Source: Sulfurospirillum sp. UCH001
GTDB taxonomy: Bacteria > Campylobacterota > Campylobacteria > Campylobacterales > Sulfurospirillaceae
Reading direction: 5' to 3'
DNA: 64,000 bases
NCBI RefSeq assembly: GCF_001548035.1
Contig: NZ_AP014723.1
Coordinates: 1,364,001-1,428,000, forward strand
Below the pieces are notes generated by a model. That model was not told the DNA's origin and did not search any database. It was given only the letters and a program-made list of their open reading frames with translations. Shown here piece by piece: positions 2,824 to 5,575 of the stretch. A program made the translations under genes and the position numbers. Each line of letters starts with the position of its first letter. The stretch's first letter is position 1.

Positions 2824-3483
2824 ACCAATCCTCAAAGCCTACAGAGAGCAAAAGGGGTCTTAAGGTGACTCGTAGCTCTCCTTGTGGTACTTCTACAACC
2901 TCACACATACTTTACACATTATTTTACATACTATTTCTAAAAGTGCCTATTTTAGGGCTCTCGTTGAGTTCACCCCCTATAGGAGAAATAAGGGCTCACG
3001 TAACAGACGAATAGAGTATCTCTCCAAGTGCCTATTTTAGAGCTCTGAGGAGGTGGTCGTGCTATAGGAGTAGAATCTATTAATCCTTCTATTTTCAATC
3101 ATAAACTATTTATCCTCTCTAGGAGTATCTTAGAGCCTCTTTACATCTCATCTACACAATGAAGCAGTCATTTATCGTTTGTCTCTCTGTAGGCTCTCAC
3201 AGGGCTATAAGTGACACCTATGTAAGTAGGAATAGTCTGTATCCGTTATAGTGTAAATGGGGACTGCCACCTATAGGGGAGAATCAAATATCACCTCATT
3301 TAAAGGGTGCTACAAAAGTGCCTATTTTAGGGCTCTCGTTGGGACTACCCCCTTATAGGAGTAAACACCCATCAAAACACACACTAAAAATAATGCTAGA
3401 GGTGAGTCTATTATCACGATAGATTGACCTGTAGTCTTCTTTCATAAACACATAATCAAAAACATGAAAGGAGGTTCTATACA
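2824..3483. other. 660-base non-coding region with dispersed palindromic repeats
   Basis: No plausible gene is visible. The region carries two identical 28-base copies and one diverged copy of a repeat unit, plus a half unit near 3258-3281. It ends with a strong Shine-Dalgarno sequence (AAAGGAGG) before the small ATPase gene at 3484. A replication origin, recombination site or array of regulator sites are all possible. Confidence 0.5.
2939..3361 (+). repeat. Dispersed direct repeats with paired palindromes
   Basis: A 28-base phrase containing CCTATTTTAGG is identical at 2939-2966 and 3314-3341. A shorter diverged copy is at 3026-3043. In each case a second dyad, CCTATAGG or a variant, follows about 20 bases on (near 2976, 3062 and 3352). 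A half unit with only the second dyad lies at 3258-3281. A related phrase in inverted orientation is at 5467-5483, on the far side of the insertion sequence. The uneven spacing argues against CRISPR. Confidence 0.7.
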
Positions 3484-3680
3484 ATGGAACTAAAACACAC
3501 AATCACTATCTATGATGCTGTCATGGGTAGTGGCAAGACTACACACATTATTCAACATATGAATAGTAACACACAGCACAAATACATCTATATAACACCC
3601 AACTTAGAGGAGTGTCAGAGGATTGCTGAATCCTGTCCGAAGTTGGACTTTAAGCATCCTAGTGATCTGTCAACACTTTA
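3484..3680 (+). pseudogene. P-loop ATPase/helicase, N-terminal remnant cut by an insertion sequence
   Basis: Sixty-five residues remain of a nucleotide-binding protein. The Walker A motif MGSGKTTH lies at about residues 15-22, followed by a strand-like YIYITPNLEEC, as seen at the start of superfamily 1 and 2 helicases. The start is an ATG with a strong Shine-Dalgarno AAAGGAGG about 9 bases upstream. The gene runs into the left end of the insertion sequence, which supplies a stop a few codons later (3694-3696). No Walker B or later helicase motifs are present on either side of the insertion, so the protein is not functional as an ATPase in this form. Confidence 0.7.
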
Positions 3681-3702
3681 TGATACACAGAAATAAATAT
3701 GT

Positions 3703-4572
3703 CTAGGCACTCATATCGTTTTGTAACAGTTTATTTTCAAAATCCACTGGTGACAAATAACCATTACTAGAGTGCAACCTCTGTCTATTATAAAACACTT
3801 CGATATATTCAAATATAGCTTGATTTGCTTGGCTCCTTGTTTCAAATTTCATATGGTGCGTAAGTTCTGTTTTTAAAGAATGAAAGAAACTCTCGGCAAC
3901 AGCATTATCATAACAATTTCCCTTAGCACTCATACTTTGGACGATGCCATATTCTTTAAGCATGGCTTTATGGGCATCGGAAGCATATTGACTGCCACGA
4001 TCGGTATGCCAGATGACACCCTGCGGAGGATTGCGTTTTTTAAGCGCCATAAAAAGCGCATCGTTGACAAGTGTTGCACTCATATGTGCATCCATAGACC
4101 AACCAATAACTCTTCTTGAATATAAATCAATGACGACAGCTAAATAGAGCCATCCTTCTTGTGTCGGGATATAGGTTATATCACCTACATACATTTGATT
4201 AGGAACTGAGGCATAAAAATCTTGTTGAATTCGATTAGGGGCAATAGCATAGGTATGATTGGAGTTGGTGGTAAGAACTCTAAAACGACGTTTATTGCGA
4301 CAACTTAGCCCAAGTTTTTTCATAATCCTTGCAATACGTCTACGAGAGACGATCAATCCATAGAGTTGTTCAAGTCTCTTTTTCATTCGGCGTGTGCCGT
4401 ACGTTTGATAAGTGCTAAGAAAAATATCTTGAATCATGGTGTTTAATACCATATCTTCTTGCCTCTCTATTCGAAGCCATCGATAATAACAGTTACGAGA
4501 AACCTCTAATAAATGGCACATGTGCGCAATATTGAATTCATTACGATGCTCTTTAATCCAGGCGTACTTCAA
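3703..4572 (-). CDS. IS3-family transposase OrfB (DDE integrase domain)
   Basis: This is the catalytic half of an IS3-type transposase, 289 residues, with an integrase-like DDE domain. The helical N-terminal part (HLLEVSRNCYYRW) is followed by the IS3 signature RRIARIMKKLGL. The catalytic acids are in VGDITYIP, in HTDRGSQY and in ESFFHSLKTE, all conserved in family members. The frame lies -1 relative to orfA, and the full transposase is expected to be the OrfAB fusion made by ribosomal frameshifting. The stop codon falls about 22 bases inside the left end of the element, as is usual. The length is normal and no internal stops are present. Confidence 0.95.
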   Translation of the reverse strand: MKYAWIKEHRNEFNIAHMCHLLEVSRNCYYRWLRIERQEDMVLNTMIQDIFLSTYQTYGTRRMKKRLEQLYGLIVSRRRIARIMKKLGLSCRNKRRFRVLTTNSNHTYAIAPNRIQQDFYASVPNQMYVGDITYIPTQEGWLYLAVVIDLYSRRVIGWSMDAHMSATLVNDALFMALKKRNPPQGVIWHTDRGSQYASDAHKAMLKEYGIVQSMSAKGNCYDNAVAESFFHSLKTELTHHMKFETRSQANQAIFEYIEVFYNRQRLHSSNGYLSPVDFENKLLQNDMSA

Positions 4573-4883
4573 TGAGCTTCTTTCGCGAAGAACGCCGCTG
4601 CCTTTTTTAAAATATCTCTCTCTATCTTCAACTTTGAGTTCTCTTTACGCAGTCGTCGATTCTCCTCTTCAAGACTTTCTTTGGGTGAACTATTGGTAGT
4701 TCGGTTCGGTAATTCAGAAATTAAGTGATGCTTTTTCCTATAGTCTCGTAGCCACGCATACAGTGTTTTATCACTCATCCCTAAATCTTGTGCTATTTGA
4801 TAGGCTGATTTTTCACTATTGAGGGCTAATTGTATTGTTGAGTTTTTAAACTCTTGAGTATATTTCTGAGCTTTGTTGACCAT
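4569..4883 (-). CDS. IS3-family transposase OrfA (DNA-binding subunit)
   Basis: This 104-residue protein has a helix-turn-helix (SAYQIAQDLGMSDKTLYAWL, about residues 26-45) and a leucine-zipper-like helix (LEEENRRLRKENSKLKIERDI) typical of IS3 OrfA, which binds the terminal repeats. Near its end, at 4608-4602 on the minus strand, is the slippery heptamer A AAA AAG in the correct phase, encoding LKK. A -1 shift there enters the orfB frame and would give the OrfAB transposase. Unshifted translation ends in KEAH and yields the regulatory protein alone. A leucine-rich shadow frame on the opposite strand is not a gene. Confidence 0.93.
   Translation of the reverse strand: MVNKAQKYTQEFKNSTIQLALNSEKSAYQIAQDLGMSDKTLYAWLRDYRKKHHLISELPNRTTNSSPKESLEEENRRLRKENSKLKIERDILKKAAAFFAKEAH
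4602..4608 (-). promoter_or_regulatory. Programmed -1 frameshift site in the IS transposase
   Basis: The minus strand reads TTA AAA AAG in the orfA frame, so the canonical slippery heptamer A AAA AAG is in phase. OrfB lies in the -1 frame and overlaps just downstream. This arrangement is the standard IS3-family means of making the fused transposase. Confidence 0.8.
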
Positions 4884-4933
4884 ATTATCAATCCTTCCTT
4901 ATTATGTAGAAATCTTATCATTTCTGTGTCCTA

Positions 4934-5241
4934 ATAAGTGTAGCCAGATCACAGGGCTACAATATGGTCTTATGACTAGAGCCCTTGTAGATAAATTCCC
5001 TATGAAGACATCACAGTGGCTTATCCTTCGTATGGGTAATCGTATCAGAGACCACATCTTAGGTGAAGGTCAAGACTGGAACAATGCCACTACAGCACAA
5101 CTTGAAGAAAGACTAGCACTGCAATCAAAGATTATGACTGCATGTGAGCTTTTAGATGATGGTATCAGTGAAGAGGAGTTCTGCAAGAAGGTGTTTAGAG
5201 TAAAGGAGCTTGACAGAAAAGAAGTACAAAGAGTAGCATAA
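4934..5241 (+). pseudogene. C-terminal gene remnant to the right of the insertion sequence
   Basis: An open frame enters from the insertion sequence and continues for about 100 residues (CSQITGLQYG, then TRALVDKFPMKTS, ending in EVQRVA). It is charged and helical and has no motif I recognise. It is either the distal end of the P-loop gene at 3484 or a different gene joined to it by an IS-mediated deletion. No Walker B or other helicase motifs are present, so if both fragments are one gene its centre is missing. An internal ATG at 4972 could allow expression of an 89-residue protein, but no good ribosome site precedes it. Confidence 0.5.
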
Positions 5242-5293: not shown

Positions 5294-5497
5294 TATCTCT
5301 CCACAGGCTCTCAGACACTTATAATCACCTATTTGTTTTCATTAGTTTTCTATAGTACGACCTCTAGTCTACTATTACACAAACCATTACACAAACTAAG
5401 GATTTTTTAGGTTTTTAGAGGGTACTATTCGTCTAGCTATCTTGTGTAAAGAAAGTCTTAAAGACTCCCTAAAATAGCCACTTATGAAGCATAAAAA

Positions 5498-5575
5498 TGG
5501 TCGGAGTGACGTGATTCGAACACGCGACCTCTACCACCCCAAGGTAGCGCGCTAGCCAGGCTGCGCTACACCCCG
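5498..5575 (-). tRNA. tRNA-Pro(GGG)
   Basis: On the minus strand the sequence folds into a full cloverleaf: acceptor CGGGGTG pairs with CACTCCG (one G-U), the D arm is GCGC/GCGC, the anticodon stem is CTACC/GGTAG around loop TTGGGGT, and the T loop holds TTCGAAT. The anticodon is GGG, read from loop positions 3-5. The CCA end is encoded (TGG at 5498-5500 on the plus strand). Its 3' end faces the accessory region at 1-5497, a geometry common for integrative elements that use tRNA genes. I could not find a second copy of the tRNA 3' end in the window. Confidence 0.95.

Follow-up and report, generated by a model that had tools for sequence, protein, structure and literature searches.

The window, a 64-kb stretch of Sulfurospirillum sp. 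UCH001 DNA, carries a cluster of paired palindromic repeats in the non-coding interval between a small serine recombinase gene (PF00239) and a P-loop gene broken by an IS3-type insertion, and the question is what these repeats are for. An earlier note on this DNA had recognised the interval and its two neighbours correctly, and proposed a res-like recombination site, replication origin iterons or regulator sites of an undescribed small element. We favour a role in controlling the helicase module, through replication or expression, over one as sites of the recombinase. In the best reading, to which we give a probability of about 45%, the units are DNA sites of iteron or operator type within a region that controls a YonV-type helicase module, possibly a replication origin. 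The interval and its immediate neighbours comprise:

2188–2823, + strand: small serine recombinase of the resolvase/invertase type, 211 aa (PF00239, E 3.8e-33; phrog_125 DNA invertase, E 1.8e-40)
2939–2990, + strand: repeat unit 1, AAGTGCCTATTTTAGGGCTCT + CACCCCCTATAGGAGAAA (direct reading, repeat search, shuffles, alignment)
3024–3075, + strand: repeat unit 2, diverged (repeat search, shuffles, alignment)
3258–3282, + strand: half unit, GGGACTGCCACCTATAGGGGAGA (direct reading, repeat search)
3314–3366, + strand: repeat unit 3 (direct reading, repeat search, shuffles, alignment)
3484–3661, + strand: 5′ fragment of a YonV-like SF2 helicase gene, XPD/DinG-like (87% identical to G018 over 61 aa)
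3662–4952, − strand: IS3-type insertion (inverted repeats, ORFs)

The two identical 28-base phrases reported earlier (AAAAGTGCCTATTTTAGGGCTCTCGTTG, 2939–2966 and 3314–3341) were confirmed by direct reading and by repeat search, and as 40-nt units the copies at 2939 and 3314 share 90% identity. The diverged third copy was recovered at 3024–3063 with 63% identity. The 21-mer AAGTGCCTATTTTAGRGCTCT occurs three times in the 64-kb window at up to three mismatches, versus no occurrence in 100 dinucleotide shuffles. Each full unit pairs a first dyad, CCTATTTTAGG, with a second dyad, CTATAGG or a variant, the two lying 31–33 bp apart from start to start with an intervening gap of about 20, as the pairing described previously had it. 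The second dyads are CCTATAGG at 2976–2983 in unit 1, GCTATAGG near 3061 in the diverged copy and CTTATAGG near 3352 in the third unit. The half unit, also present where it had been reported, carries CCTATAGG near 3269 and matches GGGACTRCC 5′ of the second dyad in copy 3. An exact or near-exact unit had no match in the other genome and viral collections.

The repeats sit within a 12.3-kb integrative element inserted in a tRNA gene, an assignment that rests on 50-bp att repeats, gene content and an empty site in relatives. Its further landmarks are:

G000:C1:1357182–1357231: attL, the other copy of the direct repeat, 6.8 kb left of the window start
1–1020, + strand: 3′ part of hsdR (type I restriction), cargo (PF12008, E 8e-70; PADLOC type I M, S and R subunits)
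4957–5241, + strand: remnant ORF right of the IS, distinct from the helicase 3′ end (database and sister-element comparison)
5465–5485, − strand: inverted relative of the first dyad, 9 bp from attR (PWM score 18.1; absent at tRNA-Pro of element-free relatives)
5495–5544, − strand: attR, 50-bp direct repeat equal to the tRNA-Pro 3′ half (exact repeat; empty site in relatives)
5498–5575, − strand: tRNA-Pro (GGG), the integration target (ARAGORN, Rfam)

The bounding direct repeats match exactly between window positions 5495–5544 and the left copy (L043 13182–13231), and in four relatives (G020, G005, G022 and G003) the left flank directly adjoins tRNA-Pro. Between the att repeats lie a tyrosine integrase gene at one element end (L043 13388–14608; its G018 homologue, 42% identical, matches PF00589 with E 3.7e-12), an uncharacterised gene, type I restriction-modification genes, two small ORFs, the small serine recombinase gene, the repeats and the broken helicase gene. 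The integrase gene, the uncharacterised gene, hsdM and hsdS fall left of the window (L043 ORFs), and no phage structural genes were recognised among the element ORFs. The insertion in the helicase gene, which we take to be of IS3 type, has 33-nt inverted repeats (3662–3694 and 4920–4952, 79% complementary) and encodes orfA (4569–4883) and orfB (3703–4572). Since the ORF to its right is something other than the helicase 3′ end and matches nothing in Pfam or PHROG, the sequence suggests a deletion or rearrangement along with the IS; this ORF has no match in the sister elements either. The inverted relative of the first dyad that had been noticed at 5467–5483 shows 94% complementarity across its 17 nt; about 10 bp separate it from the tRNA-Pro 3′ end. 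It belongs to the element, as it is missing beside tRNA-Pro in relatives without the element.

Two sister elements, together with the tRNA integration, both att repeats and the empty site in relatives, bear out the undescribed small element of the earlier note. One, in a genome of the same genus (G018), spans 7.9 kb between 61-bp att repeats in tRNA-Val, and encodes a recombinase 89% identical and an integrase 42% identical to those of the window's element. Its helicase gene is complete but for a short run of N, with no IS interruption. The other (L110), from an Arcobacteraceae MAG, was found by a scan of genome contigs with the family alignment; it has 73-bp att repeats in tRNA-Leu and a related integrase on the same contig. 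The L110 helicase shares 67% identity, whereas the small serine recombinase encoded there shares only 26% identity with the window's and differs from it in best PHROG match. Both sisters encode BRO-N, AntA or Rha genes adjoining the helicase. The element family is well bounded and apparently undescribed; the family looks new, and the type of site looks familiar. A similar membrane/coiled-coil protein of about 275 aa is cargo common to the G018 and Arcobacteraceae elements (L041 12613–13446; L192 1918–2742). The same integrase family also occurs in a G016 element (L096 1526–12641) with 59-bp repeats in tRNA-Arg and genes for a DEAD-type helicase, ArdA and DUF2958, in which neither the recombinase nor a YonV-like gene was seen.

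Two stretches on the far side of the recombinase gene are conserved among these elements:

1805–1874, + strand: conserved non-coding element common to all three elements (43 invariant columns in a three-way alignment)
2069–2187, + strand: region 5′ of the recombinase gene, about 90% identical in G018, with a TTGACA-type promoter (alignment)

The first (AYTAAAAATMTCTNNAAGGKCATATNWAWACG ... CCCCCKTATGCC, about 70 bp) lies between cargo and recombinase in all three elements (counterparts at L041 11487–11556 and L110 3548–3610) and is kept even beside the unrelated recombinase. Among the fetched loci and 397 genomes of the class, its pattern without mismatch occurs only in these elements. We considered an oriT as a speculative reading for it.

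In both sister elements the helicase gene is adjoined by related repeat units. The corresponding interval of G018 contains three copies of its own 33-nt repeat, and nine units from the three elements align over about 50 columns, an alignment to be read with the caution that an aligner will align anything. A first-dyad matrix built from the window copies gave five hits scoring at least 11 in the G018 interval, versus a shuffle mean of 0.06 and maximum of 1, and the best hit of the window-trained second-dyad matrix in the G018 element falls exactly on one of its 33-nt repeats. The two best hits of a G018-trained second-dyad matrix in 10.8 kb of L110 flank the helicase gene, at 4865 upstream and 6241 downstream. 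Training on G018 and L110 gave a second-dyad matrix that did not rise above shuffles in the window, and the window-trained matrix ranked the L110 site only fourth in that element; by sequence, the direct link between window and L110 units is weak. In G018, a repeat-rich non-coding kilobase lies 3′ of the helicase gene (L041 7800–8929), with units of 36–52 nt spaced 143–165 apart. Among the elements examined here, the full two-dyad unit was found only in the sisters. On this evidence, the units go with the helicase module and not with the recombinase.

This pattern bears directly on the proposal that the neighbouring small serine recombinase uses the units as res-like or accessory sites. Repeated dyads do adjoin a resolvase-type gene, a likeness to Tn3/gamma-delta-type res sites, but sites of that type are conserved with their cognate recombinase, and conservation of the units does not track this one. 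When the window is compared with G018, the recombinase gene (its C-terminal part near-identical), 2069–2187 and 1805–1874 align well, whereas 2824–3396, which holds the units, fails to align; in L110, a unit is retained beside a non-orthologous recombinase. A search near other homologues of the recombinase, as had been suggested, found no CCTATTTTAG repeats. Because the repeats diverge far more than the 89%-identical recombinase and the unit persists beside an unrelated one, res sites are very unlikely. The stretch at 2069–2187, which keeps its identity in G018 while the repeats diverge, is on sequence comparison more likely than the repeat units to contain the site at which the recombinase itself acts.

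The other rivals concern what the units do beside the helicase gene. They could be pure transcriptional operators through which an element regulator, of Ant/Rha/BRO type or a repressor since lost, switches the helicase without any origin function. The position between recombinase and helicase genes agrees with this, as do the regulator-type genes next to the sister helicases and palindromic dyads of a kind that fits a dimeric regulator. In G018 and L110, however, units also lie 3′ of the helicase gene, those in the window are scattered across 400 bp, more than one promoter needs, and the window copy has no regulator gene; we regard operators alone as unlikely. Terminator-like or structured RNA elements in the helicase leader would explain why the first dyad resembles CCTA-TTT-TAGG hairpins found in the genus after genes, after tRNAs and near an IS. 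Predicted folding of the units does not surpass that of shuffles (z +0.4 to +1.1), a single stretch out of nine falls below z −2, no U-run follows the units and no Rfam family matches; we rejected RNA structure as a candidate and consider it improbable. Inert relics of an internal duplication in a decaying element would suit the broken helicase gene and a right flank of the IS that is not the helicase 3′ end, but sisters with complete helicase genes retain related units in the same place, which leaves little room for this explanation.

What the helicase itself might do is indicated by its relatives. The intact G018 protein matches the phrog_2467 profile (E 4.9e-46), whose members include SPbeta yonV as well as proteins from plasmid-like prophages of Acinetobacter and Bacillus; to phage and plasmid members the helicase is about 30–35% identical. 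A model of the L110 helicase (pLDDT 90.9) matches XPD/DinG-type SF2 helicases along its whole chain (Z 16–18), and no origin-initiator folds were among its best structure matches, a result still compatible with their presence. A PDB sequence search with the helicase family returned nothing convincing. The modelled protein amounts to an XPD/DinG-like core in which no additional domain for sequence-specific DNA binding is apparent, and for that reason may not read the units itself. In plasmid-like prophages the gene often follows a long non-coding stretch and is followed by an antirepressor gene, and relatives lie beside ParA/ParB or a tubulin-like gene, while no Rep is annotated there. By analogy with these members, the long upstream non-coding DNA, the partition genes and the lack of an annotated Rep make a role of the helicase in replication plausible. 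Two differences limit the parallel: the relatives belong to large phages or phage-plasmids, whereas the present elements are chromosomal and 8–12 kb long, and repeats upstream of the gene are not typical of the family as a whole. An initial count of repeats 5′ of YonV-family genes, made without controls, had been positive, but the controlled count (14 of 63 loci versus 34 of 123 control genes) was not, and a general link was rejected. We know of no function assigned to the YonV-type helicase module in SPbeta-like phages.

If the units are control sites of the helicase module, an element protein would bind them, possibly a partner of the helicase or an Ant/Rha/BRO-type DNA-binding protein of the kind encoded beside the sister helicases. 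Binding would control helicase expression and, more speculatively, might open a replication origin once the element has excised. A separate task, such as the resolution of multimers, would fall to the serine recombinase. Since the helicase gene is interrupted in the window genome, the module there would be dead or reliant on factors supplied in trans. Origin function is suggested by analogy with phage satellites, in which repeats near the initiator gene mark the origin (PMC6092414, PMC7145576). The earlier proposal of iterons or regulator sites stands as the best, if unproven, reading. No DnaA-like box was found by the repeats, AT content there (0.52–0.72) has no clear peak or marked AT-rich stretch, no regulator or Rep gene was identified in the window copy, and no Rep model of Pfam, NCBIfam or PHROGs, and so no known initiator family, exceeded its cut-off.

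As in iteron plasmids, direct repeats lie just 5′ of a putative replication gene, with the helicase counted as that gene; unlike them, the locus has no Rep domain and no DnaA boxes at the repeats, and its units consist of two unlike dyads at irregular spacing. The resemblance to PICI/SaPI and PLE satellites (PMC6092414, PMC7145576) extends to a compact site-specific island with an integrase and accessory cargo, a specific att site without structural genes, a replication gene with repeated sites nearby and, in the sisters, phage-type antirepressor genes. These elements differ in having no recognised pri-rep, RepA_N, AlpA or terminase gene. Their replication-type gene is a YonV-like, XPD/DinG-like helicase. 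Where a PICI has a pri-rep module with the origin 3′ of it, no primase or rep model was matched here and the units lie mainly upstream of the helicase gene, with further units downstream in the sisters. That the three elements form an undescribed family of small tRNA-integrated Campylobacterota replicons, with the repeat region as origin and the YonV-type helicase driving replication, is a tentative and on balance unlikely extension. Were the repeats an origin, the widespread and uncharacterised YonV family would gain a function, and Campylobacterota a new satellite- or plasmid-like replicon. A previously unexplained repeat cluster is in any case now placed in a defined mobile element with restriction-modification cargo, and sister elements with complete helicase genes are available for testing.

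The first dyad requires separate treatment. CCTATTTTAGGG-type sequences recur in the genus at terminator-like places, near an IS and after tRNAs, and AAAGTGCCTAYTTTAGGGCTTT-like sequences follow other tRNAs, lie near a multi-copy IS transposase gene, in a phage contig and between ordinary genes. Because similar sequences occur elsewhere in the genus, the first dyad alone is not diagnostic, and its resemblance to these common terminator-like sequences limits what can be drawn from it. The objection anticipated earlier, that the repeats might be common genome-wide elements, holds in part, and for the first dyad only. Integrase arm sites were also considered and rejected, as the element ends of G018 and the window bear a different, TTTGTGTA-type repeat. 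Several tRNA-integrated elements and tRNA loci of the genus have a AAGTGCCTATTTWAGGG-like sequence at 2–21 bp from an att core or a tRNA 3′ end (window 5465–5485; L041 15084; L096 12560; L084; L077). A recombination site was considered for the first dyad on the strength of copies 2–9 bp from att cores in three elements, and was rejected given similar, often terminator-like sequences elsewhere. Near-identical 22-mers also occur, AAAGTGCCTAATATAGGGCTTT in eight copies in G015 (L221, L242) and AAAGTGCCTATTTATGGGCTTT often near contig ends (G010, G022, G003); both seem to lie close to the end of insertion sequences present in multiple copies.
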